This document shows, in pieces, positions 36,104 through 53,355 of a DNA stretch of 64,000 nucleotides. The first letter of the stretch is position 1. Each line of letters starts with the position of its first letter. Source of the DNA: a bacterium BMS3Abin02 (GTDB taxonomy: Bacteria; Actinomycetota; Acidimicrobiia; Spongiisociales; UBA4744); NCBI GenBank assembly GCA_002897675.1, contig BDSU01000036.1, positions 62,001 to 126,000 of the forward strand. The letters run 5' to 3'. The position numbers were made by a program, and so were the translations under genes. Below the pieces are notes generated by a model. That model saw only the letters and a program-made list of their open reading frames with translations, ran no database searches and had not been told where the DNA came from.

Positions 36104-36151
36104 TTCTTGCGTGAGCCGGCTGCCCATAGCGGGGGCGGCCTCACGCAAGAA
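36104..36151 (-). terminator. Hairpin terminator after purH
   Basis: A perfect 12-bp inverted repeat (TTCTTGCGTGAG 36104-36115, CTCACGCAAGAA 36140-36151) has an inner GC-rich imperfect stem. It lies 36 bp past the purH stop and upstream of the YbaK-like gene. No T-run is present. Confidence 0.65.
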
Positions 36152-36186
36152 GGGTATCGACACCCCGAACGTCACCGGCCAAGGCA

Positions 36187-38312: not shown

Positions 38313-38614
38313 GGACGGCAGCTTAGTGCTCCGGCGCGGAAGCCCGGCCACGCGCTGTCGGGCGGCATACGGGTGGGGTTGATGTTGTGTGAGGTGTTTG
38401 AGGAGGGGGTGAGGCTACGCCGGTGGCCTGCCTCACCGTTGTGTCGTGGCGGCCTGGCACGGCTCTGGATCGGGTGTACGGCCTCGTGCCGAAGTCCGGC
38501 AGGATCCTCGGGAAGGCTCCCCGACGTGGTGCGCCATGATGTCAGAAGACCAATGGCATGATCGCGGCACGTGGATCCGACGATCCGGTCACAGGGTCGA
38601 TTACCCTGCGATCC
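38313..38614. other. Divergent intergenic region purN / enoyl-CoA hydratase
   Basis: About 300 bp have no convincing gene. It holds the leaderless purN -10 (TAAGCT, minus strand 38325-38320), a hairpin GGTGAGGC/GCCTCACC (38408-38415, 38430-38437) and the candidate -10 TACCCT (38602-38607) 7 bp before the hydratase ATG. An in-frame ATG at 38558 could extend the hydratase by 19 unconserved codons. Confidence 0.45.
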
Positions 38615-39397
38615 ATGGCCGGATTCCTCACCCTCGCAGATACCGACGCCGTCAGGACTCTCACGATGTCGAACCCGGGACGCAAGAACGCCATCCCGCC
38701 AACTTCGTGGAGGCGGCTCGCGGATGCCTTCGAGGCGTTCGAAGCCTCCGATCGGCGTGTGCTGGTCCTGAAGGGCGCGCATGGAGAATTCTGTGCGGGT
38801 GCCGACATGAACAAGCCGACGTTGGACACAACACCGAGCGCCGCAGACAATGCCGCGCGCATGCGTGTCATCAGCAGAGCGGCGACCGCCCTCCACCGGA
38901 TCACCAAGCCGACGATCGCGGCGGTCGACGGTGTCGCGGTGGGGGCGGGCATGAACATGGCGATCGCGTGCGACATCGTCATAGCCACGGAACGGGCACG
39001 GTTCTCGGAGATCTTCGTCAAGCGTGGCCTGACGTTGGATTTCGGTGGAACATGGCTGCTGCCACGCCTCGTGGGTCTGGTACGAGCTCACGAACTCGCG
39101 CTGACCGGGCGCATCGTGCACGCGCGTGAGGCGCTCGAGATCGGACTCGTGACCTCCGTAGTGGCGGTCGAACAGCTCGATGAGGCGGTCGATGAACTCG
39201 CCACCGAGCTGGCCAAGGGTGCGCCGTTGGCGCAGGCGTTCATCAAGCGGGCGCTCGACCGGTCGTCGTCGATGACCTTCGAGCAAGCCCTCGCGTTCGA
39301 GGAGCACGCTCAGGCGATCCTGCTGGGATCCGAAGATCTCGAAGAGGGCGCGGCCGCCTTCATCGGCAAACGCGAGCCGCGTTTCCGAGGTCGCTGA
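38615..39397 (+). CDS. Enoyl-CoA hydratase/isomerase family protein
   Basis: This 260-residue crotonase-fold enzyme adds water across an enoyl-CoA double bond or a related reaction. It has RTLTMSNPGRKNAIPPTSW, the oxyanion-hole segment GEFCAGADM and AAVDGVAVGAGMNMAIACD. Position 1 of the catalytic pair is likely in FSEIFVKRGLTLDFGGTWLLP. The ATG at 38615 has TACCCT ending 7 bp upstream (leaderless type). It stands at the head of the acyl-CoA island. In an atu-type pathway a hydratase (AtuE) acts on isohexenylglutaconyl-CoA, but many other substrates are possible. Confidence 0.85.
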   Translation: MAGFLTLADTDAVRTLTMSNPGRKNAIPPTSWRRLADAFEAFEASDRRVLVLKGAHGEFCAGADMNKPTLDTTPSAADNAARMRVISRAATALHRITKPTIAAVDGVAVGAGMNMAIACDIVIATERARFSEIFVKRGLTLDFGGTWLLPRLVGLVRAHELALTGRIVHAREALEIGLVTSVVAVEQLDEAVDELATELAKGAPLAQAFIKRALDRSSSMTFEQALAFEEHAQAILLGSEDLEEGAAAFIGKREPRFRGR

Positions 39398-39481
39398 GGA
39401 GCGTCGCTCGACGCGACGATGGTGTCTCGTGCCATGTTTGGACACGTTGGGGAGGTTCGAGCCTCATCGCTTCCGAACGGC

Positions 39482-39513
39482 ACCGAGCGAGCGCCCGCTC
39501 GGTCGGGTACGAT
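39482..39513 (+). promoter_or_regulatory. Operator-like palindrome and -10 box upstream of the carboxylase operon
   Basis: ACCGAGCG (39482-39489) and CGCTCGGT (39496-39503) form an 8-bp inverted repeat with a 6-bp spacer. It is followed by TACGAT (39508-39513), which ends 7 bp before the carboxylase ATG. The repeat would cover the -35 region. The half-site resembles ACCGACC/GGTCGGT at 44832-44850, so the TetR regulator at 46027 may bind both. Confidence 0.5.
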
Positions 39514-39520
39514 GGTTGTG

Positions 39521-41119
39521 ATGCAGTTGATCCGGTCCACGCTCGACCCCGGGTCCGTCGAGTTCTCGGCCTACCGCGCCGCGATGCTCGAAGCGACCGA
39601 GATGGTCGCCGCCGAGCATCGCAAGGTCCTCACCATCGGTGGAGAGCGGCACATCGAACGGCACCGAGCCAGAGGCAAGCTGCTGGTGCGTGAGCGGATC
39701 GATCGGCTCATCGACCCCGACACTCCCTTCCTCGAGCTGATGCCGCTTGCCGGGTGGGGCACCAACGACCCTCTCGGCGCATCCAGCGTGGCGGGTATCG
39801 GGATCGTCTCCGGTGTCGAGACCCTCATCACCGGTTCCGATCTGACGGTGAAGGGAGGGACGGCCACCGCCACCGGCATCCACAAGGCTCTCCGGGCCCA
39901 AGAGATCGCGCTGCGCAACCGGTTGCCGTATCTGCAGATGGTCGAATCCGGCGGGGCGGCGCTCGACCAGCAGGCAGAGGTCTTCGTTCCCGGCGGCGCC
40001 ACGTTCAAGAACTACACGCGGCTGTCGGCAGCCGGCATCCCCGTCGTCTCGCTCGTCTTCGGACCCTCTACCGCGGGAGGCGCCTATCAGCCGGGCATGA
40101 GTGACTACGTGGTGATGGTGAAGAACCAGGCGGAGGTCTACCTGGGCGGTCCACCACTGGTCAAGATGGCGATCGACGAAGATGCCGACCCCGAGGCCCT
40201 CGGTGGGGCAGAGATGCATTCGCGCACCTCAGGGCTCTCGGACTACCTGGCGGTCGACGAGATGGACGCCCTCCGGATCGGACGCGACATCATGGCGCAC
40301 CTCAACTGGCGGAAGCTCGGACCCGGTCCATCCCTGCCGCCGGACCCACCCGTGTACGACAGCGACGAACTCCTGGGCATCGTTCCCGATGACCTCCGCG
40401 TCCCGTTCGACGTGCGTGAGATCCTCGCGCGCATCCTCGACGGGAGTCGTCTCGAGGAGTTCAAACCGCTCTACGGAGCACAGCTCGTCGCCGGCTGGGG
40501 ATCGATCTGGGGATACCCGATCGGCATTCTCGCCAACAACGGAATCCTCTTCTCCCAGGAATCCCAGAAGGGAACCCAGTTCATCCAGCTATGCAACCAG
40601 ATCGACACGCCGATCGTGTTCCTACAGAACATCACCGGGTTCATGGTCGGGACCACGTACGAACAGGGCGGCATCATCAAGCACGGCTCGCAGCTCATCA
40701 ACGCCGTCTCCAACAGCGCCGTACCCCATTTCACCCTGATGGTCGGCGCCTCGTACGGGGCGGGGAACTACGCGATGGCGGGAAGGGCGTACGATCCACG
40801 GTTCGTGTTCACGTGGCCGTCGCATCGGATCGGCGTAATGGGTGGAAAGCAGCTCGCAGGTGTCCTCGACATCGTCGCCCGCTCTTCGGCCGCCTCCAAG
40901 GGCGAGGAGGTCGATGAGGAGAACCTGGAGCAGCGCAAGCAGTTCCTCGAGATGAAGATGGACCACGAGTCGCAGGCCCTGTACGCAACCGGCAGGGTCT
41001 GGGACGACGGCATCGTCGACCCGCGTGCATCGAGGACGGTGCTCGGGATCGCCATCTCCGCGGCCCACAATCAGGTCGTCGAGGGAGTCAAGGGGGGCTG
41101 GGGAGTGTTCCGGATGTGA
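39521..41119 (+). CDS. Acyl-CoA carboxylase beta (carboxyltransferase) subunit
   Basis: This 532-residue carboxyltransferase transfers CO2 from carboxybiotin to an acyl-CoA. It has RHRARGKLLVRERIDRLIDP, LPYLQMVESGGAALDQQAEV, FGPSTAGGAYQPGMSDY, the oxyanion segment IVFLQNITGFMVG and GASYGAGNYAMAGRAYDPRF. This is the pattern of the methylcrotonyl-/geranyl-CoA carboxylase branch rather than propionyl-/acetyl-CoA enzymes. The ATG at 39521 has TACGAT ending 7 bp upstream and no ribosome-binding site; upstream ORF codons are unconserved. Overlap with the alpha-subunit gene is GTGA. Context favours a geranyl- or methylcrotonyl-type substrate. Confidence 0.9.
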   Translation: MQLIRSTLDPGSVEFSAYRAAMLEATEMVAAEHRKVLTIGGERHIERHRARGKLLVRERIDRLIDPDTPFLELMPLAGWGTNDPLGASSVAGIGIVSGVETLITGSDLTVKGGTATATGIHKALRAQEIALRNRLPYLQMVESGGAALDQQAEVFVPGGATFKNYTRLSAAGIPVVSLVFGPSTAGGAYQPGMSDYVVMVKNQAEVYLGGPPLVKMAIDEDADPEALGGAEMHSRTSGLSDYLAVDEMDALRIGRDIMAHLNWRKLGPGPSLPPDPPVYDSDELLGIVPDDLRVPFDVREILARILDGSRLEEFKPLYGAQLVAGWGSIWGYPIGILANNGILFSQESQKGTQFIQLCNQIDTPIVFLQNITGFMVGTTYEQGGIIKHGSQLINAVSNSAVPHFTLMVGASYGAGNYAMAGRAYDPRFVFTWPSHRIGVMGGKQLAGVLDIVARSSAASKGEEVDEENLEQRKQFLEMKMDHESQALYATGRVWDDGIVDPRASRTVLGIAISAAHNQVVEGVKGGWGVFRM

Positions 41120-43059
41120 CGATGCGCACTCTCCTCATCGCCAATCGGGGCGAGATCGTCGCCCGCATCGCTCGCACGGCACGGCGGCTGGGAATCATCC
41201 CGGTCGGCGTCTACTCCGACCCGGATCGGGACTCGCCGGCGCTGACCCACCTCGATGCCGCCGTCCATCTGGCCGGCGCCACCGCAGCGGACACTTATCT
41301 CGATGGTCCCGCTCTCATCGACGCGGCGCGCCGCCTCGGCGCAGACGCCATCCACTCCGGATTCGGATTCCTCGCCGAGAATGCCGGTTTCGCCTCCTCC
41401 GTGCTCGATGCCGGGCTCATCTGGGTGGGCCCATCCCCGCAATCGATCGCCGCCATGGGCGACAAGCTCGAGGCCATCAGGCGCGCCGCGGCCGTGGGCG
41501 TCCCGGTGCTGCCTTCGATTCGCCTCGATGACGCCCTCGATCTCACTCGGGTGAGCACGGAGATCGGTTTCCCGGCCCTTGTGAAGGCGGCGGCGGGCGG
41601 CGGGGGCAAGGGCATGCGACGCGTCGAGCGTGTCGAGGAGCTCGAAGCAGCGATCGCCGCCGCCGGTGGTGAGGCACTGAGGAACTTCGGCGACGGCACC
41701 CTCTACCTGGAACGGCTTGTCAGCCCCGCACGACACGTGGAGGTTCAGGTCTTCGGCGACCGTCACGGTGACGTCATCCACCTCTTCGAGCGGGAGTGCT
41801 CCATTCAGCGACGCCACCAGAAGATCATCGAGGAGGCACCGGCCCCCGGCTTGGGTGGCGCACTGCGCGATTCCCTCCTCACCGCCGCCGTGTCCTTGGC
41901 CGAATCCCTCGACTACGAGAATGCGGGAACCGTGGAGTTCGTCGTCGGCGAAGACGACTTCGCGTTCATCGAGATGAACACGAGGCTTCAGGTGGAGCAT
42001 CCCGTCACCGAGGAGATCACCGGCCTCGACCTGGTGGAATGGCAGCTGCGCGTAGCCCGCGGCGAACCGCTCCCCGCCACTCAGGACGAGGTGCATCACC
42101 GTGGACACGCCATCGAGGCCCGCCTCTACGCAGAGGATCCCGCCACCGGGTGGGCGCCCGGCACGGGTCGCATGGTCCGGTACCGGCGCGGGCCCGGCCT
42201 CGCCCGGTACGAGGAGTCGCTGCGCTCCGGCATGGTGATCTCTCCGTACTACGACCCGATGATCGCCAAGGTGATCACACACTGCGCCACACGATCCGAC
42301 GCCGCTGCGGTTCTCGCCTCGGAGCTGGAGGCCATGCACCTCCACGGTCCCGTCACCAACCGTGACTTTCTCGTCGCCACGCTGCGCCATCCCGCCTTCC
42401 TCGAAGGGTTCACGACCACCGACTTCATCGGGGACCACCCCGGTCTGCTCGATGCCGGGCCCGAAGACGCCACCCGCACGATCCATCGTGCCGCCGCCCT
42501 CTGGGCCCGCACCCTGGGCAACCGTGACAGTGACCGGCACTGGGGTCTCGCCCCGGCCCACTGGCGCAACGTCCCGGCAGAGCGACCTTTCGTCGTCCTC
42601 GACGGACACCGGGTCGAGTACGTCGTGCATGAGAACCGCGTCGTCGTGGCGATCGACGGTGCTCGAGATCACGAGGCCACGATCCACGACGACGGCGCCA
42701 CCGTCGTCGAGATCGACGGCGTGGCCACGCCATGTGAGGTTCATCTCGAAGGGGGGAACCTCTGGGTGAACTCGCCCCGGGGTCAGTCGCTCTTCGTCGA
42801 ACAACCTCGCTTCGAGGCGCACGACCCGACGATCGTCGCCGGGGGACCGATGGCCCCGATCCCGGGAACGGTCACGGCGGTCCTCGTGTCGGCGGGGGAT
42901 GAGGTCGACGAACACAGCGATCTGGTGATCATCGAGGCCATGAAGATGGAGCATCGCATCCGTGCTCGCGGTCCTGCAGTGGTGGTCGAGGTACTGGTCG
43001 CTCCCGGCGATCAGGTCGACGCGGGGGCGGTCCTGGTCCATCTCGAGGAGAGGGAGTGA
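41116..43059 (+). CDS. Acyl-CoA carboxylase alpha subunit (biotin carboxylase + biotin carrier)
   Basis: This 647-residue protein joins an ATP-grasp biotin carboxylase and a C-terminal biotinyl domain. Visible are LLIANRGEIVARIARTARRL, the Gly-rich ATP loop KAAAGGGGKGMRRVERVEE, HVEVQVFGDRHGDVIHLFER, ECSIQRRHQKIIEEAPAP and IEMNTRLQVEHPVTEEITGL. The biotin site is EAMKMEHRI near residue 615, preceded by PIPGTVTAVLVSAGDEV. The length and layout match MccA/AtuF-type alpha subunits. The GTG at 41116 overlaps the beta-subunit stop, and the next gene overlaps its stop in the same way, so the complex is co-translated. Confidence 0.92.
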   Translation: MTMRTLLIANRGEIVARIARTARRLGIIPVGVYSDPDRDSPALTHLDAAVHLAGATAADTYLDGPALIDAARRLGADAIHSGFGFLAENAGFASSVLDAGLIWVGPSPQSIAAMGDKLEAIRRAAAVGVPVLPSIRLDDALDLTRVSTEIGFPALVKAAAGGGGKGMRRVERVEELEAAIAAAGGEALRNFGDGTLYLERLVSPARHVEVQVFGDRHGDVIHLFERECSIQRRHQKIIEEAPAPGLGGALRDSLLTAAVSLAESLDYENAGTVEFVVGEDDFAFIEMNTRLQVEHPVTEEITGLDLVEWQLRVARGEPLPATQDEVHHRGHAIEARLYAEDPATGWAPGTGRMVRYRRGPGLARYEESLRSGMVISPYYDPMIAKVITHCATRSDAAAVLASELEAMHLHGPVTNRDFLVATLRHPAFLEGFTTTDFIGDHPGLLDAGPEDATRTIHRAAALWARTLGNRDSDRHWGLAPAHWRNVPAERPFVVLDGHRVEYVVHENRVVVAIDGARDHEATIHDDGATVVEIDGVATPCEVHLEGGNLWVNSPRGQSLFVEQPRFEAHDPTIVAGGPMAPIPGTVTAVLVSAGDEVDEHSDLVIIEAMKMEHRIRARGPAVVVEVLVAPGDQVDAGAVLVHLEERE

Positions 43060-44852
43060 GCGTGCGACCCGTCCGCATCGCAAACATCTCCGGCATGTTC
43101 GGCGATCGCCCTTCCGCTGCGCTCGAAATGCTGGAGGGAGGCGATGTCGACGTCCTCTCCGGCGACTGGCTGGCGGAGCTGACGATGCTGATCATGGCCC
43201 GGACGCGAATGCGGCGGCCCGATGGAGGCTACGGTCGCACCTTCGTCGCCCAGATGGAGCAGATCATGGGCATCGTGCTCGACCGCGATGTGAAGGTGGT
43301 GGTGAACGCGGGCGGTCTCGACCCTCTCGGCTGCGCAGAAGCCGTCCGAGAGGTCGGCAACCGTCTCGGGCTCGCTCCCACGGTGGCTGCGATCACCGGC
43401 GACGACCTCTCCGGCCGCCTCGGGGATCTCGTCGCCGCAGGGGCACCGTTCATCAACCTCGACACCGGAGAACCGCTCGACGACAAAGCGGACAGGATCC
43501 TCACCGCCAACGCCTATCTCGGAGGCTGGGGGATCGCGTCGGCACTCGGCAGTGGCGCAGACATCGTGGTGACCGGCAGGGTCACCGACGCCTCGCTCGC
43601 CGTCGGCCCCGCGGCGTGGTGGCACGAATGGGCGAGGGACGATTGGGATGCACTGGCGGGGGCAGTCGTGGCCGGCCACGTGATCGAGTGCTCGATGCAG
43701 GCAACCGGTGGCAACTTCTCGTTCTTCGGTGAGGTGTCCGGTCTCGAATATCCCGGCTTCCCGTGGGTGGAGATCGCGGCAGACGGGTCGAGCGTGGTCG
43801 GCATTCATGAGGGTGCCGGCGGCGAGGTGTCGATCCCGACGGTGACATCGCAACTTCTCTACGAGATCGGGAGTCCCGAGTACGACAACGCAGACGTCAC
43901 CGCCCGTTTCGACTCCATCGAGATCGAGGAGATCGCTCCGAACCGCGTCAGACTCTCCGGGATCAAGGGACAACCGCCGCCACGGACCCTCAAGGTGGCC
44001 GCTGCCTACGCCGGCGGTTTCCGCAACACGATGATGATCGGTCTCACAGGTCTCGACGCGAAAGCCAAGGCAGACCTGTTCTGCCGCCAGTTCTGGCGAG
44101 CGTGCCCGTGGGATCCTGAGGACTATGAGGAGGTGCGCACCACGCTCATCGGCCGAGGTGAACGGGATCCATCGTCGAACGCTGCCGCCGTCTCCTACCT
44201 GGAGATCGCGGTGCGCGACCCGGACGAGGAGAAGGTGGGTCGCTCTTGGGCGGATACGATGGTGCATATCGCGCTCGGCTCGATCCCCGGTCTGTTCGGC
44301 GTGTGGCCGCCTCGGAAGGCCTCTCCCTACGCCGTCTACTGGCCGACCCTGATCGATCGAGAAGCGGTGACCGACGTTGTCCATCTCGGTGAGAGATCCT
44401 TCGCGGTGCCTGAGACCGATCCCGGCGAGCCGTTCACCGTGACCCTGGAGGAGCCCCGGATTCTCTCTCCGCCGTCGGGCTCCCTGGTACGGGTTCCCCT
44501 GGGACGAGTCGTCGGGGCTCGGTCCGGCGACAAGGGTGGCAGTGCCAACCTCGGAGTGTTCACTCGAACCGACGACGGTTACCCCTGGCTCACGGCCTTC
44601 CTCACCGTCGACCGTCTCATCGATCTGCTCCCCGACCTTGCCGAATACGAGATCGACAGGTACGAGCTGCCTCGCCTGCGAGCCGTCAACTTCGTCGTTC
44701 ACGGCATCCTCGACGAAGGCGTCAGCTCCTCCCTGCGCTTCGACGCACAGGCGAAGGGCCTCGGCGAGTACCTCCGGGCCAAGTGGATCGAGGTGCCCGC
44801 GGCCCTGACGGTGCTGCAAGATCGTGATAGGACCGACCAGTCCGGTCGGTGA
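43056..44852 (+). CDS. AtuA family protein (acyclic terpene utilisation, DUF1446)
   Basis: This 598-residue protein has an N-terminal DUF1446 domain (VRIANISGMFGDRPSAALEM, LSGDWLAELTMLIMAR, VKVVVNAGGLDPLGCAEAV, DIVVTGRVTDASLAVGPA) and a C-terminal AtuA-like domain (VPLGRVVGARSGDKGGSANL, RAVNFVVHGILDEG). In Pseudomonas, AtuA belongs to the citronellol/geraniol pathway, although its reaction is unknown; the family also occurs in other acyl-CoA catabolic clusters. The GTG at 43056 has GAGGAGAGG upstream and overlaps the alpha-subunit stop. A TetR-type palindrome overlaps its own stop codon. Confidence 0.88.
   Translation: MSVRPVRIANISGMFGDRPSAALEMLEGGDVDVLSGDWLAELTMLIMARTRMRRPDGGYGRTFVAQMEQIMGIVLDRDVKVVVNAGGLDPLGCAEAVREVGNRLGLAPTVAAITGDDLSGRLGDLVAAGAPFINLDTGEPLDDKADRILTANAYLGGWGIASALGSGADIVVTGRVTDASLAVGPAAWWHEWARDDWDALAGAVVAGHVIECSMQATGGNFSFFGEVSGLEYPGFPWVEIAADGSSVVGIHEGAGGEVSIPTVTSQLLYEIGSPEYDNADVTARFDSIEIEEIAPNRVRLSGIKGQPPPRTLKVAAAYAGGFRNTMMIGLTGLDAKAKADLFCRQFWRACPWDPEDYEEVRTTLIGRGERDPSSNAAAVSYLEIAVRDPDEEKVGRSWADTMVHIALGSIPGLFGVWPPRKASPYAVYWPTLIDREAVTDVVHLGERSFAVPETDPGEPFTVTLEEPRILSPPSGSLVRVPLGRVVGARSGDKGGSANLGVFTRTDDGYPWLTAFLTVDRLIDLLPDLAEYEIDRYELPRLRAVNFVVHGILDEGVSSSLRFDAQAKGLGEYLRAKWIEVPAALTVLQDRDRTDQSGR
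44832..44850. promoter_or_regulatory. TetR-type operator upstream of acyl-CoA dehydrogenase
   Basis: ACCGACC (44832-44838), a 5-bp spacer and GGTCGGT (44844-44850) form a perfect inverted repeat. It ends 26 bp before the ATG at 44877. ACCGACC-type palindromes are common operators of TetR-family regulators of acyl-CoA metabolism, and a TetR gene lies 1.2 kb downstream. Confidence 0.6.
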
Positions 44853-44876
44853 CCAAGGACCAAGTCAGGAGATTCC

Positions 44877-46022
44877 ATGCCATTCACCGAAGATCACCAC
44901 CACTTCCGCCGGGTCGTCCGGGAGTTCGTCGAGAAGGAGATCAATCCCAATGTCGAAGGCTGGGAGGCGGAGGGGATGATGCCCCTCCACGACGTCTTCA
45001 CAACGATGGGCGACCTCGGATTCCTCGGCCTCGAATACGACCCGGAGTACGGCGGTCAAGGCGCAGATCATCTCTTCACCGTCGTTCTGTCCGAAGAGTT
45101 CGGTCGAGCGGACCACGGCAGTATCGGGATGGCGCTCGGGGTGCAGGTCGCGATGGCGACACCCTCCCTGCACCGTTACGGATCTCCCGAACTGAAGCAG
45201 CGGTACCTGGCCCCGGCTCTCCGCGGCGAGATGGTGGCGGCAATCGCGGTCACCGAGCCGGATGCAGGTTCCGATGTGGCCGCCATCCGCACCAGGGCGG
45301 AGCGTTTCGGTGACGAGTGGGTGATCAACGGGTCCAAGATGTTCATCACCAATTCGCTTCAGGCGGACTGGCTCTGCCTTCTCGCCCGCACGTCCGATGA
45401 ATCCGGGTACCAGGGGATGAGTCAGATCATCGTTCCCACCGTCATCGAGGGTGTCGAGGTTTCGCGCAAGCTGGACAAGCTCGGGATGCGTGCCTCCGAT
45501 ACGGCTCTGATCACCTTCAACGACGCCAGGGTCCCCGTCGACCACACGCTTGGCGCCGAGGGGATGGGATTCCAGCAGCAGATGGCGCAGTTCGTCGAGG
45601 AGCGAATGTGGGCCGCCTATTCGTCGGTCGGCTCCATGGAGCGCGCTCTTGCCCGCACCTCCGAGTACATCAGGCAGCGACACGTGTTCGGAAAGCCGCT
45701 GAGTCGCAACCACTACGTGACGTACAAGCTTGCGGAGTTGGCCGTCGAAGTGGACCTGCTCAAGTACTACAACTACGCCTGTGCCGAGGCCTTCGCCCGA
45801 GGCGACGACACGACGCGGTTTGCCACCATTGCCAAGCACAAGTCGGGCAGGCTGATCAGGGAGGTCGCCGACTGGTGCCTTCAGTTCCATGGAGGGACCG
45901 GGTACATGGAAGAGACCTGGACCACTCGTTTCCTGCGCGACTCCCGTCTCGGCGGTATCGGCGGGGGAGCGGACGAGGTGATGCTCGACATCCTCTCCCG
46001 TATCGATGGCTTTGCCGGGTGA
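44877..46022 (+). CDS. Acyl-CoA dehydrogenase family protein
   Basis: This 381-residue FAD enzyme introduces an alpha,beta double bond into an acyl-CoA. It has the family motifs FGRADHGSIGMALGVQVAMA, AIAVTEPDAGSDVAAIRTRA, WVINGSKMFITNSLQADW, LGMRASDTALITFNDARVPV and FHGGTGYMEETWTTRFLRD, followed by GGIGGGADEVMLDIL near the C-terminus. It resembles the citronellyl-CoA dehydrogenase (AtuD) and long-chain types, but the substrate is not proved. The ATG at 44877 has CAGGAG upstream. A TetR-type palindrome lies 26 bp before it. The TetR gene starts 4 bp after its stop. Confidence 0.88.
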   Translation: MPFTEDHHHFRRVVREFVEKEINPNVEGWEAEGMMPLHDVFTTMGDLGFLGLEYDPEYGGQGADHLFTVVLSEEFGRADHGSIGMALGVQVAMATPSLHRYGSPELKQRYLAPALRGEMVAAIAVTEPDAGSDVAAIRTRAERFGDEWVINGSKMFITNSLQADWLCLLARTSDESGYQGMSQIIVPTVIEGVEVSRKLDKLGMRASDTALITFNDARVPVDHTLGAEGMGFQQQMAQFVEERMWAAYSSVGSMERALARTSEYIRQRHVFGKPLSRNHYVTYKLAELAVEVDLLKYYNYACAEAFARGDDTTRFATIAKHKSGRLIREVADWCLQFHGGTGYMEETWTTRFLRDSRLGGIGGGADEVMLDILSRIDGFAG

Positions 46023-46026
46023 CCTG

Positions 46027-46626
46027 ATGCCACCGAACGACCTCAGAGCACGGCGAGAAGACGAGATCGCTCGCGGCGCGCTGAAACTCTTCCTGGACAA
46101 GGGATTCCACGCCACTTCGGTTCGCGAGATCGCAGCGGCTTCCAACCTCTCGATGGGAGGTCTCTACGAATACATCGGGTCGAAAGGCGATGTTCTGTGG
46201 CTCGTCTACCGTCACCTCCTCACAGGCCTCGACGCTGCGGTCTCGTCTTCGGCCTCGGGTGAAGATCTGGAGGCGACGCTCGCCGCACTCATCGCGGCGA
46301 CGACCGAACACGCCGCCGAGGTGCAGCTCATGTACAGGGAGGCGGGTGCTCTCGACCCGGCGGATCGGGAGCGGCTCGCCGTCTCCGAGCGGGAACAGGC
46401 AGGTCGGCTGGCCGCCATGGTCGAGGAGGGGATCGCATCGGGATACCTGGCCGAGAACGACCCGGAACTCGTCGCCCACCTCCTCATGTTCCTCACCGCG
46501 TTCTATCCGCTCCGACGCTGGCTGCTGCGACATCGGGCCGACCTCGATGCCGGCACCGTCGCCCGATCCGTGGCCCGCATCGTCGTGCATGGCCTGCGTG
46601 CCCGCACTGATGCGGACCCTTCCTGA
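46027..46626 (+). CDS. TetR-family transcriptional regulator
   Basis: This 199-residue protein has an N-terminal TetR helix-turn-helix: REDEIARGALKLFLDKGFHA, TSVREIAAASNLSMGGLYEY and IGSKGDVLWLVY. A helical ligand-binding C-terminal domain follows. The ATG at 46027 is taken; an ATG seven codons upstream, overlapping the dehydrogenase stop, is possible. As the only regulator in the acyl-CoA island it is the likely binder of the palindromes at 39482 and 44832, and its ligand would be an acyl-CoA of this pathway (inference). The second domain has no known motif. Confidence 0.88.
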   Translation: MPPNDLRARREDEIARGALKLFLDKGFHATSVREIAAASNLSMGGLYEYIGSKGDVLWLVYRHLLTGLDAAVSSSASGEDLEATLAALIAATTEHAAEVQLMYREAGALDPADRERLAVSEREQAGRLAAMVEEGIASGYLAENDPELVAHLLMFLTAFYPLRRWLLRHRADLDAGTVARSVARIVVHGLRARTDADPS

Positions 46627-46941
46627 CCGGCCGGAGCACGGTCGTTGCCGGTCTCCGACGGGGCGCGGCCGATCATGTCGGCGCTGGCGCCAGTTCGATG
46701 TGCAACGTCGGCGCGCGAGCGCCCCGATTCGCGGCGAGAGCAAGATCCATCACAGTTTGCCCCGGGTCTCGGTGAGATCGCGAAACTTGCCACGACGCGC
46801 GGCTCCAAGAGTGATCGAGATGACGTGGACGAGAAGCATCCACGGCAGAGGCTCACCGTGGTCGGCGCGCCTGCACGGGCAACCCTCTGGGATGACTGCA
46901 AGTGGTTAGTGTTCCGCGAGGCCGCGACGAGGAGGTTCTGA
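46627..46941. other. Non-coding stretch between TetR gene and second enoyl-CoA hydratase
   Basis: About 315 bp carry no ORF that looks like a protein; the two overlapping ORFs have shadow-like composition. A stem GACCGGC (46625-46631) / GCCGGTC (46647-46653) at the start may be a terminator of the TetR transcript. The ribosome-binding site GGAGG of the next gene is at its right end. Confidence 0.45.
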
Positions 46942-47709
46942 GTGATCGATTATGAGGTGTCCGACGGTGTTGCGACGGTCATGATCGATGACCCCGAGCG
47001 ACGGAACCCGTTGTCGAATGAGGCGGTCCGGGAGCTGAAGGAAACCATCATCCGGGCAGGGAACGATGCCGACGTGCGGGTGCTCGTGATCACGGGCGCC
47101 GGAGAGAGAGCCTTCTCCGCCGGCGGCGACCTCGCGGGCGGTTTTGTGGAGTCGCCGGTGGCGGGGCATGCCTCCCGTGGCGAGTTGGCCGACCTGTTGC
47201 GGGCGATGACAACCCTTCCCAAGCCCATCGTGGGCCGTGTGAACGGGGTGGCTCTCGGCGGCGGTTTCGGTGTCGCCGCCGCGTGCGACATCACGATCGT
47301 CGTCGACGACGTGAAGCTGGGAACACCTGAGATAGGCCTCGGATTGTGGCCCATGATGATCTCTGCGGTGCTGTTCCCGCTCGTGCCGCGCAAGCGTCTC
47401 TTGCACATGATGATGACGGGACAGCTCATTTCGGGGAAACAAGCCGTAGAACTCGGGATCGCGACCTTCAGCGTGCCCAGAGAGCAGCTCGATGCGGTGG
47501 TCGATACCACCGTCGCGAAGCTCAAAGAGATGCCTTCTGGCGCGCTCGCACTTGGAAAACGGGCGTTCTACGTGACGGCGTCGATGGATCCGGACACCGC
47601 GCTCGACAATCTGCACATCGGGCTCACCGCCGTGTCGTTCACGGACGATGCCGCCGAGGGGGTGGCCGCGTTTCTGGAGCGCCGCGACCCGACCTGGACG
47701 GGCCGGTAG
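46942..47709 (+). CDS. Enoyl-CoA hydratase/isomerase family protein
   Basis: This 255-residue crotonase-fold protein has VATVMIDDPERRNPLSNEAV, ERAFSAGGDLAGGFVESP, IVGRVNGVALGGGFGVAAAC and GTPEIGLGLWPMMISAVLFP. The last segment holds the Glu of the catalytic pair and the GLGLWPMM form common in the hydratases that act with methylcrotonyl/geranyl-type carboxylases. The GTG at 46942 has GGAGG upstream. It is separate from the hydratase at 38615, from which it differs clearly, and closes the acyl-CoA island. Confidence 0.86.
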   Translation: MIDYEVSDGVATVMIDDPERRNPLSNEAVRELKETIIRAGNDADVRVLVITGAGERAFSAGGDLAGGFVESPVAGHASRGELADLLRAMTTLPKPIVGRVNGVALGGGFGVAAACDITIVVDDVKLGTPEIGLGLWPMMISAVLFPLVPRKRLLHMMMTGQLISGKQAVELGIATFSVPREQLDAVVDTTVAKLKEMPSGALALGKRAFYVTASMDPDTALDNLHIGLTAVSFTDDAAEGVAAFLERRDPTWTGR

Positions 47710-47919
47710 CGGTGCCAAGCACTGAGTGCGGGTGCCGAGTACGGAGAGCGAAGTGAGCCGGGGAGGCCGCTGAGGAACGCATGCCGCGGGTGACGCCTCC
47801 GTGCAGTCTCCCGACCGTGTGCTGCGAGCCGATGACGAAGAGCCGGCCGGCGAAGTTTCCCCGACATGGCTCCAAGACGGTTGCTATCGTCGCCGCATCC
47901 TTGCTGGGAGGGGAAGAGT

Positions 47920-48708
47920 TTGCTCGAGGTCGCCAACTTGGAGGTCGTCTATCACGATGTGATCCTGGTGTTGCGCGGCATCTCATTCACGGTTCCCGAA
48001 GGCCGGATCGTTGCGCTCCTGGGGGCGAACGGCGCCGGCAAGACGACCGTCCTGCGAGCCATATCCGGGTTGCTCGACGTGTACGACGGCGACATCACGA
48101 AGGGCGAGATCACAGTCGATGGTGCGCCGATCCATCGCGCGGAGGCTGCGGACATCGTGCGTAGAGGTGTGACACAGGTAATGGAGGGCCGCCGCATCTT
48201 TGCAGAATTCACGGTCGAAGAGAACCTGCGTGTCGGAGGGCACACGTCGCGCGGCAGCCTCGAAGATCGCCTGGAACGCGTCTTCGGCTTGTTCCCGCTG
48301 CTGAAGGCTCGTCGCAAACTCATTGCCGGATACCTCTCCGGTGGAGAGCAGCAGCTGCTGGCGATGGGAAGGGCCCTGATCACCGACCCGAAGTATCTTC
48401 TGCTCGACGAACCGAGCCTCGGTTTGGCTCCACTCCTCGTCCAGCAGGTCCGGGACCTCATCGTCGAGATCAACCGCCAAGGGACGGGGATTCTGCTGGT
48501 GGAGCAGAACGCGGCGATGGCGCTGTCGATCGCGGGTCATGGCTACATCATGGAGACGGGGAAGATCGTGATGGACAAGCCCGCGTCCGAGCTGATGCAA
48601 GACCAGGACGTCCAGGAGTTCTACCTCGGTCTTCACGGACCTGGAGGAGAGCACAAGTCGTTCCGCGACGTCAAGCACTACAAGCGGAGAAAGCGGTGGC
48701 TGTCATGA
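47920..48708 (+). CDS. livF: Branched-chain-type ABC transporter ATP-binding protein (LivF)
   Basis: This 262-residue ATPase has Walker A (VALLGANGAGKTTVLRAIS), the signature YLSGGEQQLLAMGRAL and Walker B (YLLLDEPSLGLAPLLV), the LivF pattern of the branched-chain amino acid family. It energises import by the LivHM permease. The start is a TTG at 47920 after GGGAGGGGAAGAG, giving LLEVANLEVVYHDV; upstream ORF codons are unconserved. It is the first gene of the transporter operon and overlaps livG by 13 bases. The C-terminus has an extra basic tail (HKSFRDVKHYKRRKRWLS). Confidence 0.92.
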   Translation: MLEVANLEVVYHDVILVLRGISFTVPEGRIVALLGANGAGKTTVLRAISGLLDVYDGDITKGEITVDGAPIHRAEAADIVRRGVTQVMEGRRIFAEFTVEENLRVGGHTSRGSLEDRLERVFGLFPLLKARRKLIAGYLSGGEQQLLAMGRALITDPKYLLLDEPSLGLAPLLVQQVRDLIVEINRQGTGILLVEQNAAMALSIAGHGYIMETGKIVMDKPASELMQDQDVQEFYLGLHGPGGEHKSFRDVKHYKRRKRWLS

Positions 48709-49526
48709 CCGACCGTCTCCTCGAGGTCACGGACCTGCATCTCGGCTTTGCCGGAATCAGGGCGCTCGACGGTGTCGGGTTCTCCGTCGAGACCGGCGAG
48801 CTGTTCGCCATCATCGGTCCGAACGGAGCCGGCAAAACCTCCATCTTCAACTGTCTCAACGGGGTGTACCGGCCACAGGAGGGGTCCATACGGCTGCAAG
48901 GTACGGAGTTGATCGGCAAGCGACCGCACCGCATCGCAGGCCTCGGAGTCGCCCGCACGTTCCAGAACATCGAGTTGTTCGAGAACCTCACGGTCCTCGA
49001 GAACATCCTGCTCGGAAGGCATCTCCACGTGCGTTACGGGACTCTGTCGGCGATGGTGTGGTTCGGAAGGGCACAACGCCAGGAGGATCTGCATCGCGAG
49101 CGTGCCGAAGAGATCATCGACTTCCTCGAGATCGAAGCGTACCGCAAGAGCCTCGTCCGAGTGCTCCCCTACGGTGTGCAGAAGCGTGTCGAACTCGGGC
49201 GCGCCCTCGCCATGGACCCCAGCTTGCTGCTTCTCGACGAGCCTGCCGCCGGGATGAACCTCGAAGAGACCGAAGACATGGCCCGTTTCATCCTCGATAT
49301 CAAGGAGCAGTTGGGGATCGCGATGATCCTCGTCGAGCACGACATGGGTCTCGTGATGGACATTGCAGACCGCATCATGGTCCTCGACTTCGGGAAGAAG
49401 ATCGCCGAGGGAACGGCGGCCGAAGTGCAGAGCGATCGCGAGGTGATCAGGGCGTACCTCGGTGAGGAATTCGAGCGGGGCGATCTGAAGTCGGCCGACG
49501 TGCGTCTGACCGGAGGTGGAATGTGA
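48696..49526 (+). CDS. livG: Branched-chain-type ABC transporter ATP-binding protein (LivG)
   Basis: This 276-residue ATPase partners LivF. It has Walker A (FAIIGPNGAGKTSIFNCLNG), the LivG-specific GVARTFQNIELFENLTVLEN, the altered signature VLPYGVQKRVELGRALAMD and Walker B (LLLLDEPAAGMNLEE). The signature lacks the usual LSxGxQ serine (YGVQKR), common in LivG. GTG 48696 overlaps livF; ATG 48705 is the alternative. Its stop overlaps the GTG of the acyl-CoA synthetase gene (GTGA). Confidence 0.92.
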   Translation: MAVMTDRLLEVTDLHLGFAGIRALDGVGFSVETGELFAIIGPNGAGKTSIFNCLNGVYRPQEGSIRLQGTELIGKRPHRIAGLGVARTFQNIELFENLTVLENILLGRHLHVRYGTLSAMVWFGRAQRQEDLHRERAEEIIDFLEIEAYRKSLVRVLPYGVQKRVELGRALAMDPSLLLLDEPAAGMNLEETEDMARFILDIKEQLGIAMILVEHDMGLVMDIADRIMVLDFGKKIAEGTAAEVQSDREVIRAYLGEEFERGDLKSADVRLTGGGM

Positions 49527-51325
49527 CGGCCAGTATCCCCGAGGTGCTGCGCGAGGTCGCCGGCGCCGTCCCGAACAAGGTGGCACTGCGGGAAAAGGAG
49601 TTCGGGATCTGGCAGGAGACGACGTATGCCGGCTACTGGGATCTGGTTTCCACGGTCGGCATGGCGCTGTGGGCGCTTGGGGTGCGTTCCGGTGACAAGG
49701 TCGCGATCCACTCCGAGAACCGTATCGCGTGGGTCGTCACCGATCTCGCCGCGCAAGGCATTCAGGCGGTGTCGGTCGGCCTGTATCCGACGAATCCTGC
49801 TCCTGAGGTGGAGTACCTCCTGGGTCATTCCGAAGCCAAGGTGCTGGTCGCAGAGGATCAGGAACAGGTGGACAAGGCGCTCGAGGTGAGAGCCGGACTC
49901 CCGAACCTCGAACGGATCGTCTATGTCGATCCCAAAGGCGTGAGCACGTATCGCGATCCGATCCTCCTGTCGTGGGAGGACTTCCTGGCAATGGGGCACA
50001 AGCAGCGCGAGGAGACGCCGGCGCTCTTCGACGAACTGGTCGACGGCATCGACTCGCGTACCACCGCGACGATCGTGTACACGTCAGGCACCACGGGACC
50101 GCCCAAAGGGGCGATGCTGTCGCACAAGAATCTGCTCTGGACTGCCGGACAGGCGAAACAGATCATCTCGGGTGACCGGCCCGAAAAGGACGCAGAGTTC
50201 CTCTCCTACTTGCCGTTGTGCCATGTCTTCGGGCGCCTCTACGACATTCTCGGGGCGCTCTCGATGCGGGCGACGGTCAACTTCGCCGAATCGATCGACA
50301 CGCTCGTGAGCGACCTGGCAGAGGTCCAGCCAACCTACTTCCCGGCACCGCCGCGTATCTGGGAGAAGATGAAGGCAGCCACCGAGATCAGGATGGCGGA
50401 CGCGAGTTTCCTCAAGCGGATCCTGTACGGAATGTTCATGAAGGCAGGACTTCGCAACGTCGATCGCGTCATGGAGAAAGGCTCCCGGGGAATCGTCGGC
50501 ACGTTGACACAGGGTCTCGGATGGTTGTTCGTGTTTCGAGCTCTTCGCAAGAAGCTGGGGATGGGCAAGTGCCGACAGGCGATCAGTGGAGCTGCGCCGA
50601 TCGCGCCGGAGCTGCTGCAGTTCTTCATGGCACTCGGAGTACCGATCTTCGAGGGGTGGGGGATGACCGAGACGACGGCATTGGGCACCGTCAACCCTGC
50701 GGACGATGTGAAACTCGGCACGATCGGGAAGGCGCTCGACGGGATCGAACTCAAACTGGGTGACGACGGCGAGATCCTCATCCGTCACGAAGGGATCTTT
50801 CAGGGCTACTTCAAGAACCCCGAGGCGACCGCAGCCGCGTTGGCGGACGGATGGCTCCACACGGGGGATGTCGGAGAGTGGGTTGGTGACCACATGCGGA
50901 TCATCGACCGCAAGAAAGACATCATCATCACCGCCGGTGGCAAGAACATCTCTCCGTCGGAGATCGAGCAGAAGCTCAAGGTCTCGCCGTATATCAAAGA
51001 AGCGATGGTGATCGGCGACAAGCGCAAGTTCATCAGCGCCCTCATCGGCATCGAGTTCGACACGGTCGCCAACTGGGCTCAGCGCAAGGGCATCACCTTC
51101 ACGACGTATCGGGACCTGTCGGAGAAACCGGAGGTGATCAAGTTGATCCGAAGGGAAGTCGATCGCGTGAACGCCGATTTCGCACGGGTCGAGCAGATCA
51201 AGAAGTTCCACCTGATCCCCAAAGAGCTCGACCACGATCAGGGTGAGCTGACCGCGACGCTGAAGGTCAAACGCAAGGTGGTCGAGGGTCTGTTCGAGGA
51301 CCTGATCGAGGAGATGTACGCGTGA
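49523..51325 (+). CDS. Long-chain-type acyl-CoA synthetase (AMP-binding)
   Basis: This 600-residue ANL-family ligase activates a carboxylic acid to its CoA thioester through an acyl-AMP. It has the P-loop TIVYTSGTTGPPKGAMLSHK, LPLCHVFGRLYDILGAL, IFEGWGMTETTALGTVNP, LHTGDVGEWVGDHMRIIDRK and the catalytic-Lys segment GELTATLKVKRKVV. The linker and motif pattern resemble the FadD15-like long-chain group. It sits inside the livF-G-H-M-K operon with GTGA overlaps on both sides. This links import to activation and argues that the transporter's cargo is a carboxylic acid rather than an amino acid (inference). Confidence 0.9.
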   Translation: MTASIPEVLREVAGAVPNKVALREKEFGIWQETTYAGYWDLVSTVGMALWALGVRSGDKVAIHSENRIAWVVTDLAAQGIQAVSVGLYPTNPAPEVEYLLGHSEAKVLVAEDQEQVDKALEVRAGLPNLERIVYVDPKGVSTYRDPILLSWEDFLAMGHKQREETPALFDELVDGIDSRTTATIVYTSGTTGPPKGAMLSHKNLLWTAGQAKQIISGDRPEKDAEFLSYLPLCHVFGRLYDILGALSMRATVNFAESIDTLVSDLAEVQPTYFPAPPRIWEKMKAATEIRMADASFLKRILYGMFMKAGLRNVDRVMEKGSRGIVGTLTQGLGWLFVFRALRKKLGMGKCRQAISGAAPIAPELLQFFMALGVPIFEGWGMTETTALGTVNPADDVKLGTIGKALDGIELKLGDDGEILIRHEGIFQGYFKNPEATAAALADGWLHTGDVGEWVGDHMRIIDRKKDIIITAGGKNISPSEIEQKLKVSPYIKEAMVIGDKRKFISALIGIEFDTVANWAQRKGITFTTYRDLSEKPEVIKLIRREVDRVNADFARVEQIKKFHLIPKELDHDQGELTATLKVKRKVVEGLFEDLIEEMYA

Positions 51326-52218
51326 CCCAGTTCCTGCAAGCAACCGTGGCGGGGCTCTCCCTCGCCTCGATCTACGCGCTGCTCGCGCTCGGGTTCGTCA
51401 TCATCTTCAAGTCCACCCAGGTGCTCAGCTTCGCACAGCCCGCCCTGATGATCTTTGGTGCGTACTTCGTCTCCTACCTCGCGGTCACCGTGGGCATCGA
51501 TTTCTGGCTGGCACTGGCGATCGGCATCCTGCTCACCGCGTTGCTCGGAGCCGTGATCGAGCGAGTCACATTGCGACCTCTCGTCGGCAAACCGCTCTTT
51601 ACGCTCGCGATTCTGACCATCGGCCTCGATATCGCGATCCGCGTCGTGGTCGACGATCTCATCGGAGTGAACCTGCGTGGTGTCGGCGACCCGTGGGGCT
51701 TCAGCAGCATACGGGCGGGTGGCGTGGTGATCGAGACGCGGGTGATCGCCATGTTTGTCGCTGCCGTGATCGTCGCGGTCGCGCTGCTCGCTTTCTTCAA
51801 GTACTCCAGGGTCGGCCTGGCCATGCGCGCGACGGCCGCCGATCAAGAGGTGGCTCTCGCCCAGGGAATCAACGTGCATCAGATCTTTGCGCTGGCCTGG
51901 ATACTCGGGGGCGCGCTCGCCGCCCTTGCGGGCATGTTCGCCGCCTCGGGCGCGGCCGGACTGAGCCAGAGCAACTGGATCGTTGCACTGAAGGCACTCC
52001 CCGCGATCGTTGTCGGAGGCCTCGACTCGATCCACGGGGCTATCGTCGGGGCGCTCATCATCGGGTTGGCCGAGGGATACAGCGCCACCTACCAGGCCCA
52101 GTACATGCCGTGGCTGGGAAGCAACTTCAGCCAGGTGATTCCGTATCTCGTGATGCTCATCGTGCTGCTGATCAAACCGTACGGGCTGTTCGGCACCGAG
52201 GAGGTGGAACGGGTGTGA
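51322..52218 (+). CDS. livH: Branched-chain-type ABC transporter permease LivH
   Basis: This 298-residue integral membrane protein has about eight TM helices and the LivH pattern: TVAGLSLASIYALLALGFVI, VLSFAQPALMIFGAYFVSYL, GLAMRATAADQEVALAQGIN and AIVVGGLDSIHGAIVGALII. It forms the translocation path with LivM. The GTG at 51322 overlaps the synthetase stop; its stop overlaps the GTG of livM. Confidence 0.92.
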   Translation: MTQFLQATVAGLSLASIYALLALGFVIIFKSTQVLSFAQPALMIFGAYFVSYLAVTVGIDFWLALAIGILLTALLGAVIERVTLRPLVGKPLFTLAILTIGLDIAIRVVVDDLIGVNLRGVGDPWGFSSIRAGGVVIETRVIAMFVAAVIVAVALLAFFKYSRVGLAMRATAADQEVALAQGINVHQIFALAWILGGALAALAGMFAASGAAGLSQSNWIVALKALPAIVVGGLDSIHGAIVGALIIGLAEGYSATYQAQYMPWLGSNFSQVIPYLVMLIVLLIKPYGLFGTEEVERV

Positions 52219-53327
52219 GAGGACGACCGAACCTCCACAGCTCCTATCGATCCGATCGGGCGATCTTGCCGACCTCCACGCAGAGAGTCGCTCTCGCCGC
52301 CGGCGTGGGTGTGGTCCTCGTCCTCCCGTTCCTCGGTCTCTCCCGGACGTGGCTGATCCTTCTGGCGACCACCTTCGTCGCGTCGATCGGTGCGATCGGG
52401 CTCAACCTGGTGACCGGCTACGCGGGACAGATCTCGCTCGGCCATTCGTTCTTTCTCGGTATCGGAGCGTACGTCGGCGCCGCGCTCTCGGGCGATCCGA
52501 GCGCAAACGTGATCGGGTTCGGTCTCGGCATGCTCATCTGGCTGCCTGCGGCCGGTCTCGTGGCAGCCGCGATAGGCGCGCTGGTCGCCCCGATGGCACT
52601 GCGCGTCAAGGGCCTCTACCTCGCACTCCTCACCCTGGGACTCGTCTTTCTCGGCGAGCACATTTTCAGGAACTGGGACTCGCTGACCGGGGGTACCGGG
52701 ATCGGCCGCAAACCGGCAGTGCTGCAACTGCTCGGGTGGCGGTTCGACAAACCGGGATCGATCGGTGGGATCCTGCTCTCGCGAGAGCAGCAGATCTACT
52801 TCTTCACGTTCGTCCTGTTCGTCGTGATGGCCTTCGCGGCGAAGAACCTCGCCCGGTCCAGGGTTGGCAGGGCGTTCTCGGCCATTCGGGATCGCGACAT
52901 CGCCGCGGAAATCATGGGAGTGGACCTGACCAAGTACAAGGTGCTTGCGTTCGCGGTCTCCTCCTTCTACGCGGGGATTGCCGGATCGCTCTACTTCACG
53001 GTGACAGGCTTTGTCGAGCCGGCGAGTTTCAATCTGCTCCTGGCTATCCTGTTCATCGCAATGGTGGTCATCGGGGGAGTGTCCTCGATCGCAGGCTCGA
53101 TCATGGGCGCTGCGTTCGTAACGCTGCTGCCCCAGATCATCGATTCTGCATCAGGCTGGCTTCCGTTCATCGGTGACGGCGCAGGAGGCGTGCTCAGCCC
53201 GGCGCAGCTGGAACGGATACTCTTTGGAGGGTTGATCGTGTTCTTCCTGATCTTTGAGCCGCTCGGTATGTACGGCATATGGATCAGGGTCCGCAACTAC
53301 TGGAAAACATGGCCGTTCTCATACTGA
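52215..53327 (+). CDS. livM: Branched-chain-type ABC transporter permease LivM
   Basis: This 370-residue membrane protein shows the LivM pattern: AIGLNLVTGYAGQISLGHSF, GLYLALLTLGLVFLGEHIFR, GRAFSAIRDRDIAAEIMGVD, KVLAFAVSSFYAGIAGSLYF and VVIGGVSSIAGSIMGAAFVT. The GTG at 52215 overlaps the livH stop (GTGA) with GAGGTGG upstream; the longer ORF to the left lies inside livH in another frame and is not real. The binding-protein gene follows after 28 bp with its own ribosome-binding site. Confidence 0.92.
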   Translation: MRGRPNLHSSYRSDRAILPTSTQRVALAAGVGVVLVLPFLGLSRTWLILLATTFVASIGAIGLNLVTGYAGQISLGHSFFLGIGAYVGAALSGDPSANVIGFGLGMLIWLPAAGLVAAAIGALVAPMALRVKGLYLALLTLGLVFLGEHIFRNWDSLTGGTGIGRKPAVLQLLGWRFDKPGSIGGILLSREQQIYFFTFVLFVVMAFAAKNLARSRVGRAFSAIRDRDIAAEIMGVDLTKYKVLAFAVSSFYAGIAGSLYFTVTGFVEPASFNLLLAILFIAMVVIGGVSSIAGSIMGAAFVTLLPQIIDSASGWLPFIGDGAGGVLSPAQLERILFGGLIVFFLIFEPLGMYGIWIRVRNYWKTWPFSY

Positions 53328-53355
53328 AGGGCCCGACGACAAGGGAGGAGAGCCA

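Follow-up and report, generated by a model that had tools for sequence, protein, structure and literature searches.

We analysed a window of 64,000 nucleotides from contig BDSU01000036.1 of the actinobacterial genome BMS3Abin02 (assembly GCA_002897675.1), which contains a gene island resembling the atu cluster of Pseudomonas. Seven genes were observed on one strand between positions 38615 and 47709, in the order and at the coordinates given by an earlier, sequence-only reading of the same DNA: those for an enoyl-CoA hydratase/isomerase family protein (ECH1), the carboxyltransferase (CT, beta) and biotin carboxylase (BC, alpha) subunits of a carboxylase, AtuA, an acyl-CoA dehydrogenase (ACAD), a TetR-family regulator, and a second hydratase/isomerase family protein (ECH2) (Table 1). 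Each protein has a strong Pfam match, and a coding-type codon-position GC pattern was present in all seven genes. Among the NCBIfam matches listed, none of the seven proteins reached the cut-off of an equivalog, and AtuA matched no family. The overlapping starts described earlier for the carboxylase block were confirmed at the CT/BC (41116–41119) and BC/AtuA (43056–43059) junctions, and the end of ACAD overlaps the start of the TetR gene unless the alternative start of the latter is used. The gene list of the sequence-only reading lacked a LIV-type transporter run with a ligase, which begins about 160 bases after ECH2 and reaches 54777.

Table 1 Genes of the island and of the adjoining transporter run
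Feature	Position	Strand	Supporting match
Enoyl-CoA hydratase/isomerase family protein 1 (ECH1); candidate 3-alkylglutaconyl-CoA hydratase	38615..39397 (38558 = alternative start)	+	PF00378 (ECH_1) 2.4e-52
Carboxyltransferase (CT, beta) subunit, GCC lineage	39521..41119 (frame open from 39419)	+	PF01039 (Carboxyl_trans) 1.3e-123; pocket loop; tree
Biotin carboxylase / BT / biotin carrier (BC, alpha) subunit	41116..43059	+	Pfam biotin carboxylase N/D2/C + Biotin_lipoyl; biotin motif EAMKM
AtuA; predicted fused CmlA-CmlB-type lyase	43056..44852	+	PF07287 (residues 6-444) 1.4e-153 + C-terminal PF23544 (AtuA_ferredoxin, 481-577) 5.7e-19
Acyl-CoA dehydrogenase (ACAD)	44877..46022	+	Pfam acyl-CoA dehydrogenase N/M/C
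TetR-family regulator	46006..46626 (46027 = alternative start)	+	PF00440 (TetR_N), PF17932 (TetR_C_24)
Enoyl-CoA hydratase/isomerase family protein 2 (ECH2)	46942..47709	+	PF00378 (ECH_1) 6.8e-45
LivF-type ABC ATPase	47866..48708	+	PF00005
LivG-type ABC ATPase	48696..49526	+	PF00005, PF12399
AMP-binding acyl-CoA ligase (putative AtuH-like role)	49523..51325	+	PF00501 4.4e-73
LivH-type permease	51322..52218	+	PF02653
LivM-type permease	52218..53327 (start approximate)	+	PF02653 4.4e-37
HAAT/LIV-type periplasmic binding protein	53254..54777 (start approximate)	+	PF13458

The nearest solved relative of ECH1 is 1,2-epoxyphenylacetyl-CoA isomerase (4fzw, 151 bits), and that of ECH2 is 3-hydroxypropionyl-CoA dehydratase (5zai). 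Of the two possible starts of CT, 39521 is likelier than 39419, similarity to methylcrotonyl-CoA carboxylase (MCC) and geranyl-CoA carboxylase (GCC) beginning at the former. The best solved match of BC is the alpha subunit of P. aeruginosa MCC (3u9s; residues 3–646, 476 bits). ACAD has a Glu-Arg pair aligned with the base position of isovaleryl-CoA dehydrogenase (IVD) and no Glu at the position found in medium-chain acyl-CoA dehydrogenase, both of which we take to be catalytic-base positions. Genes of the AtuA, AtuC/AtuF, AtuD, AtuE, and AtuR types stand together by family rather than by orthology, as the atu-like reading had it. The description of the island as complete was not supported, in that no AtuB/AtuG-type alcohol/aldehyde genes were seen among its genes (38615–54777), the only part of the genome searched for them. 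With its transporter and ligase, the cluster appears designed for the use of acids.

Against the PDB, the window CT scored 544 bits with P. aeruginosa MCC, 507 bits with P. aeruginosa GCC (5ikl), and at most 233 bits with chains of the propionyl-CoA carboxylase (PCC) type; 9tps, which scored 519 bits, is named as a PCC, yet it falls among the MCCs in the tree and shares their loop. The alignment with MCC and GCC starts at residues 35–38, and that with PCC-type chains only at residues 57–90. The N-terminal extension of GCC, an extended helix absent from PCC, is recognizable in the window CT at the sequence level. According to the accessible text of PMC4673880, GCC is told from MCC by two features, a pocket Gly where MCC has Phe and the lack of an insertion of three residues that MCC carries, and the available part of PMC4347857 also fixes the pocket position by the motif RQDEVFPDREHFGRIF with Phe157/Phe191. 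The pocket loop reads EVFVP---GGATF in the window CT, EIFVE---GARGF in P. aeruginosa GCC, and EVFPDREHFGRIF in MCC. The window CT thus has Gly at the pocket site and no three-residue insertion, as does GCC, and shows neither the Phe nor the insertion of MCC.

In a tree of 42 rows, from which the loop columns were excluded and which was rooted on a very long outgroup, the window CT, P. aeruginosa GCC, and the AtuA-linked CTs without the insertion formed a clade with support of 97/99, and the MCCs fell outside it; a quick tree supported the same clade at 99. Within this clade of the 42-row tree, P. aeruginosa GCC stands with an Achromobacter CT, the row with the highest identity to 5ikl (56%), and the window CT belongs to a group (99/97) that is sister to this pair. 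The sequence-only reading had proposed a phylogeny and the pocket residue as a check on the carboxylase and had named a grouping with propionyl- or acetyl-CoA enzymes as an outcome that would speak against its interpretation; in scores and tree, the window CT instead went with MCC and GCC, with the Gly of GCC at the site. Its sequence makes it a GCC-lineage enzyme rather than a proven GCC. An ordinary MCC was ruled out as a sequence class by the absence of Phe and of the insertion, though not as a possible activity.

AtuA is one chain of 598 residues that matches PF07287 with 512 bits (cut-off 22.8) over the entire profile (1–437 of 437), and its C-terminal part is labelled by Pfam as an AtuA ferredoxin-like domain. 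A structure model built from 75 aligned proteins had a mean pLDDT (predicted local distance difference test) of 91.9. Its best structural match was 9evf_A (Z 31.2, 409 aligned residues, root-mean-square deviation 3.5, 16% identity; Foldseek E 6.7e-20), and the next, unrelated row was at Z 9.4. The entry 9evf is citramalate lyase with ADP and pyruvate; in the PDB, chain A has the two names "AtuA family protein" and, as CmlA, "Citramalate lyase, subunit A", and chain B is "DUF4387 domain-containing protein" as well as "subunit B" (CmlB). The C-terminal domain of AtuA, modelled alone (pLDDT 88.4), matched 9evf_B at Z 10.5 over 101 of 105 residues, with the next row at 6.9. Profile comparison (hhalign) of AtuA with a three-sequence CmlA family gave 98.2% and E 3.1e-14 over residues 63–335, and G156, R175, D178, E211, C212, Y269, E270, and K313 of AtuA align with residues invariant in these three sequences. 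The C-terminal domain had no Pfam match to DUF4387, and the corresponding profile comparison was weak (4.8%, E 0.008). A single-sequence search of the PDB with AtuA returned nothing useful, the relation to CmlA having come from the fold, and a search of viral structures returned nothing. A CmlA-like gene lies directly before a DUF4387 gene in two other genomes (L240:3875–5592 and L241:4516–6271); at L240, a large membrane protein, by eye TRAP-transporter-like, is encoded just upstream of it. No DUF4387 gene was found in the BMS3Abin02 genome, in a search whose controls were likewise without a match. The simplest reading of the models is that AtuA corresponds to CmlA and CmlB in a single chain.

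Citramalate is cleaved into pyruvate and acetate, a tertiary alcohol shedding its CH2-COO- arm as acetate. In the accessible portions of published work, AtuA is only "speculated" to split 3-hydroxy-3-alkylglutaryl-CoA into 3-oxoacyl-CoA and acetate, and it is also placed among enzymes "characterized or tentatively identified". Because the bond is of the same type, the predicted structural match lends this speculation independent support. Given that the solved relative binds ADP beside pyruvate, we would guess by analogy that AtuA may be nucleotide-linked, with use of ATP. A literature search found no paper on CmlA/CmlB. The match of both modelled domains to lyase subunits argues that AtuA takes part in the route as an enzyme; the sequence-only reading had called it a probable essential member.

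We consider it probable that the island serves the breakdown of beta-methyl-branched acids of a terpene- or leucine-like kind as a single catabolic operon. The LIV-type ABC transporter would import the branched acid, the AMP-binding ligase would form its CoA ester, and the IVD-type acyl-CoA dehydrogenase would yield the 2-enoyl-CoA. The GCC-lineage biotin carboxylase would then carboxylate the beta-methyl (gamma) carbon, a hydratase would form 3-hydroxy-3-alkylglutaryl-CoA, and AtuA, by retro-aldol cleavage, would take off the CH2-COO- arm as acetate and leave a 3-oxoacyl-CoA for beta-oxidation. We infer the order of these steps, the substrate, and the reaction of AtuA. The earlier proposal of a terpenoid or leucine-type acid agrees with this scheme as far as the breakdown of a methyl-branched acid is concerned; either kind could be the substrate, since no second MCC/GCC-lineage CT was found in the genome and the GCC of Pseudomonas, in the available text of PMC4673880, takes methylcrotonyl-CoA as well as geranyl-CoA.

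Linkage of AtuA to this class of carboxyltransferase was observed across genomes. Of 198 genomes sampled from the phylum, 40 had an AtuA-family match, a number that includes fragments and weak CmlA-like matches (e.g. G248, G071). With a GCC-band CT defined as one of at least 590 bits, both were present in 35 of these 198 genomes, AtuA only in 5, the CT only in 2, and neither in 156; the corresponding numbers for 59 relatives were 27, 2, 7, and 23. A cluster of this type is widespread and not exceptional for an actinobacterium. One AtuA-only genome, G173, has a CT match beside AtuA that falls below the band (265 bits, 64% partial). An AtuA-family protein without a GCC-band CT was also seen in G074, G082, G083, and G217, with frames shorter than 500 codons in the first two, and these proteins probably represent other functional branches. 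Of 80 named AtuA loci, 44 have at least 6 kb on both sides, and 32 of these have a CT on the strand of AtuA and no more than 6 kb from it. The pocket site is Gly, Ala, Ser, or Thr in all 46 readable CTs of the named loci and Phe in none, and Phe with the insertion was present in 9 of 9 MCC-band control loci.

The AtuA-locus CTs of Desulfobacterales, other deltaproteobacteria, Dehalococcoidia, and Phaeobacter keep the insertion, have no Phe, and are not part of the GCC clade; in Phaeobacter, the locus has a second CT, more distant from AtuA, with Phe. These sequences suggest that a large pocket accompanies AtuA in more than one lineage. The CTs of L101, L104, L106, and L122 (near 321, 502, 1893, and 5441; Dehalococcoidia and deltaproteobacteria) combine the MCC insertion with Gly in place of Phe. 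Those of them included in the 42-row tree fall outside the GCC clade, and a second origin of the large pocket is possible from their sequences.

A genome of the same genus (L231) has the genes ECH1 through ligase, which is as far as its locus reaches, at 90–95% identity, and a more distant acidimicrobial metagenome-assembled genome (L070) has LivG, ligase, and LivH joined with CT-BC-AtuA. Linkage to a LIV transporter is not universal: in one relative family (G028), AtuA is flanked by genes for an aldo-keto reductase and for a FecCD permease and its binding protein, and CT-BC has a histidine kinase gene beside it. G020, another relative, with CT and no AtuA, has a thiolase and a family III CoA-transferase upstream of CT. 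A TIGR03084 "metal-binding protein" is encoded between hydratase and AtuA in Mycolicibacterium chubuense (L248:8183–8995) and Rhodococcus opacus (L249:8159–8980). Several other named loci have a gap of this size before AtuA, and no TIGR03084 gene was seen in the window. This protein may also take part in the route.

Six genes in the order AtuA-ACAD-CT-BC-ACAD-ECH, all in one direction, were found in Mycolicibacterium sediminis (L128), the CT of which has a GCC-type loop, and in a mycobacterium-like genome, G096 (L193). Another CT of G096 (L213) is of the MCC type and groups in the tree with 9yx0_G, presumably a mycobacterial MCC. The six-gene layout is that of Rv0976c-fadE13-accD2-accA2-fadE12-echA7 in M. 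tuberculosis, whereas the window has another gene order, and no LIV-type genes were detected in the L128 and L193 stretches. According to the accessible text of PMC9283954, Rv0971c–Rv0976c form an operon with echA7, fadE12, accA2, accD2, and fadE13, and hypoxia and stationary phase strongly induce it. To judge from the layout at L128 and L193, Rv0976c should be AtuA. The available part of PMC4347857 describes AccD2 as divergent in the Phe motif, reports that deletion of accD2-accA2 in M. smegmatis did not impair growth on isovalerate, and calls the role of AccA2-AccD2 an open question; our reading predicts a larger 3-methyl-branched enoyl-CoA as the substrate. In PMC6530141, as far as its text was accessible, accD2 is treated as a mycolic acid gene; the title of the reference cited at that point names Corynebacterianeae, with C. 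glutamicum and M. tuberculosis as examples. None of the papers listed by a literature search linked AccD2 to geranyl-CoA, and a search on beta-decarboxymethylation with mycobacteria returned nothing useful.

The genome is 95% complete, with 2.5 Mb in 46 contigs, and encodes two CTs above the Pfam cut-off, the window CT and one of the PCC or acetyl-CoA carboxylase (ACC) type. No 3-hydroxy-3-methylglutaryl-CoA (HMG-CoA) lyase exceeded the NCBIfam cut-off in it, its four HMGL-fold proteins being 2-isopropylmalate synthase, citramalate synthase, and two LeuA-like proteins. HMG-CoA lyase was likewise not over cut-off in the same-genus genome (G001, rated 100% complete), and was found in none of five genomes of one family (f4), one of them 56% complete. 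AtuA may therefore stand in for HMG-CoA lyase in this genome. A general replacement is not supported by the counts, 15 of the 27 relatives with both CT and AtuA also having HMG-CoA lyase; end-of-contig fragments in G015 and G034 were scored as absent in the lyase counts. Among the seven relatives with CT and no AtuA, HMG-CoA lyase was over cut-off in six. Three loci with a GCC-type CT, L150, L152, and L154 (G020, G041, and G027), come from genomes in which no AtuA was detected, and all three genomes have HMG-CoA lyase. Three E1 dehydrogenase-alpha matches in the BMS3Abin02 genome leave room for a branched-chain keto-acid dehydrogenase, so that leucine degradation is possible.

The cluster might instead be a leucine/isovalerate route with no terpene involved, in which the carboxylase would be the MCC of the organism and AtuA would split HMG-CoA into acetoacetyl-CoA and acetate in place of HMG-CoA lyase. 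The solitary MCC/GCC-lineage CT in a 95% complete genome, the lack of HMG-CoA lyase over cut-off here and in G001, the E1-alpha matches, the acceptance of methylcrotonyl-CoA reported for GCC, and a transporter of the branched-chain amino acid family would all suit such a route. We nevertheless regard it as unlikely, if a serious contender: the window CT lacks the Phe and insertion typical of MCC, an MCC-band CT is also present in 23 of the 40 AtuA-positive genomes of the phylum, where the AtuA-linked enzyme probably has another job, and the M. smegmatis deletion described in the accessible text of PMC4347857 left growth on isovalerate unaffected. An accessory role for AtuA, as a carboxylase chaperone or regulator or a CoA-handling protein with cleavage left to HMG-CoA-lyase-like or other enzymes, strikes us as rather improbable. 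It would fit the 15 genomes in which HMG-CoA lyase accompanies CT and AtuA, the 5 of 198 with AtuA but no GCC-band CT, and the word "speculated" in the portions of literature available on Pseudomonas. The predicted match of each domain to one subunit of a lyase of solved structure speaks against it, as does the finding of an HMG-CoA-lyase-like gene in 0 of 80 AtuA loci within the stretches covered, a count with a weak control (1 of 9 MCC loci, their stretches being about 10 kb long). To a misread propionyl- or acetyl-CoA carboxylase cluster we give almost no credence, since a general family resemblance (Carboxyl_trans) is all that favours it, and the PDB scores, the tree, and the N-terminal stretch shared by MCC and GCC refute it at the sequence level.

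Several points weigh against the catabolic operon for branched acids itself. The co-occurrence counts of AtuA and CT are uncorrected for relatedness; 7 of the 34 relatives with a GCC-band CT lack AtuA, so that the carboxylase does not need AtuA everywhere, and the five AtuA-only phylum genomes and the 15 relatives that retain HMG-CoA lyase count on the same side. The sequence likeness of AtuA to CmlA is weak (16% in the structural alignment, E 0.03 in a plain profile search), and a common fold is no proof of a common reaction. The window CT lies in a sister clade of GCC and not within the characterized enzymes, and the route as a whole is read from sequence and predicted structure rather than from activity or expression.

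With less than even confidence in the whole, we tentatively extend the operon reading into one joint proposal. AtuA proteins would be single-chain, possibly nucleotide-linked, acetate-releasing lyases acting on 3-hydroxy-3-alkylglutaryl-CoAs and distinct from HMG-CoA lyase; in lineages like this one they would replace HMG-CoA lyase, so that one GCC-type carboxylase with AtuA would serve both isoprenoid and leucine-derived acids; and the hypoxia-induced mycobacterial accA2/accD2 operon would perform the same beta-methyl removal on some branched acyl-CoA.

The gap between the TetR and ECH2 genes (46627–46941, about 300 bases) contains a 98-codon open frame without a Pfam match and imperfect inverted repeats of 9–11 nt, and is possibly regulatory. 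The AtuR operator of Pseudomonas consists of 13-bp inverted repeats (PMC9973270); inverted repeats in the intergenic stretches of the island are short (8–11 nt), no search having been aimed at that operator. Upstream of the island, a purine biosynthesis run at 27431–38351 was recognized by reading, with a formyltransferase domain confirmed at 37704–38351, and a protein with a YbaK-type tRNA-editing domain is encoded amid these genes at 35565–36062.

The island itself is a variant of a known, widespread kind, and its value lies in a coherent, testable mechanism for AtuA that extends to the mycobacterial operon. The two-domain match to a solved acetate-releasing lyase gives AtuA an assayable reaction and candidate residues (R175, D178, E211, C212, Y269, E270, and K313), and the likeness makes an old guess about AtuA testable. 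A hypothesis is also offered for the poorly understood AccA2-AccD2 operon.

Compared with atuABCDEFGH/atuR of Pseudomonas, the window likewise has AtuA, GCC-type alpha and beta subunits, an acyl-CoA dehydrogenase, a hydratase, a ligase, and a TetR regulator in one block, but it differs in gene order, in the attached LIV-type transporter, in a CT from the sister clade of Pseudomonas GCC, and in having no AtuB/AtuG-type dehydrogenases among the island genes examined. The window CT resembles P. aeruginosa GCC (5ikl; PMC4673880) in the pocket Gly, the absence of the insertion, and the common 97/99 clade, whereas it belongs to a sister lineage, and the likeness is one of sequence. With citramalate lyase (9erq, 9evf), AtuA appears from its model to share the CmlA fold in its main domain and the CmlB (DUF4387) fold in its C-terminal domain; the lyase has two subunits, whereas AtuA is one fused chain with about 16% identity, and its expected substrate differs in being a CoA ester that bears a large side chain. 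Plasmid pLPS8 of Rhodococcus opacus (NZ_CP093381) carries CT-BC-ECH-x-AtuA-ACAD-ligase-TetR on one strand, where x is the TIGR03084 protein; it differs from the window in this extra protein, in the absence of an annotated LIV transporter from the stretch, and in Ala at the pocket site.

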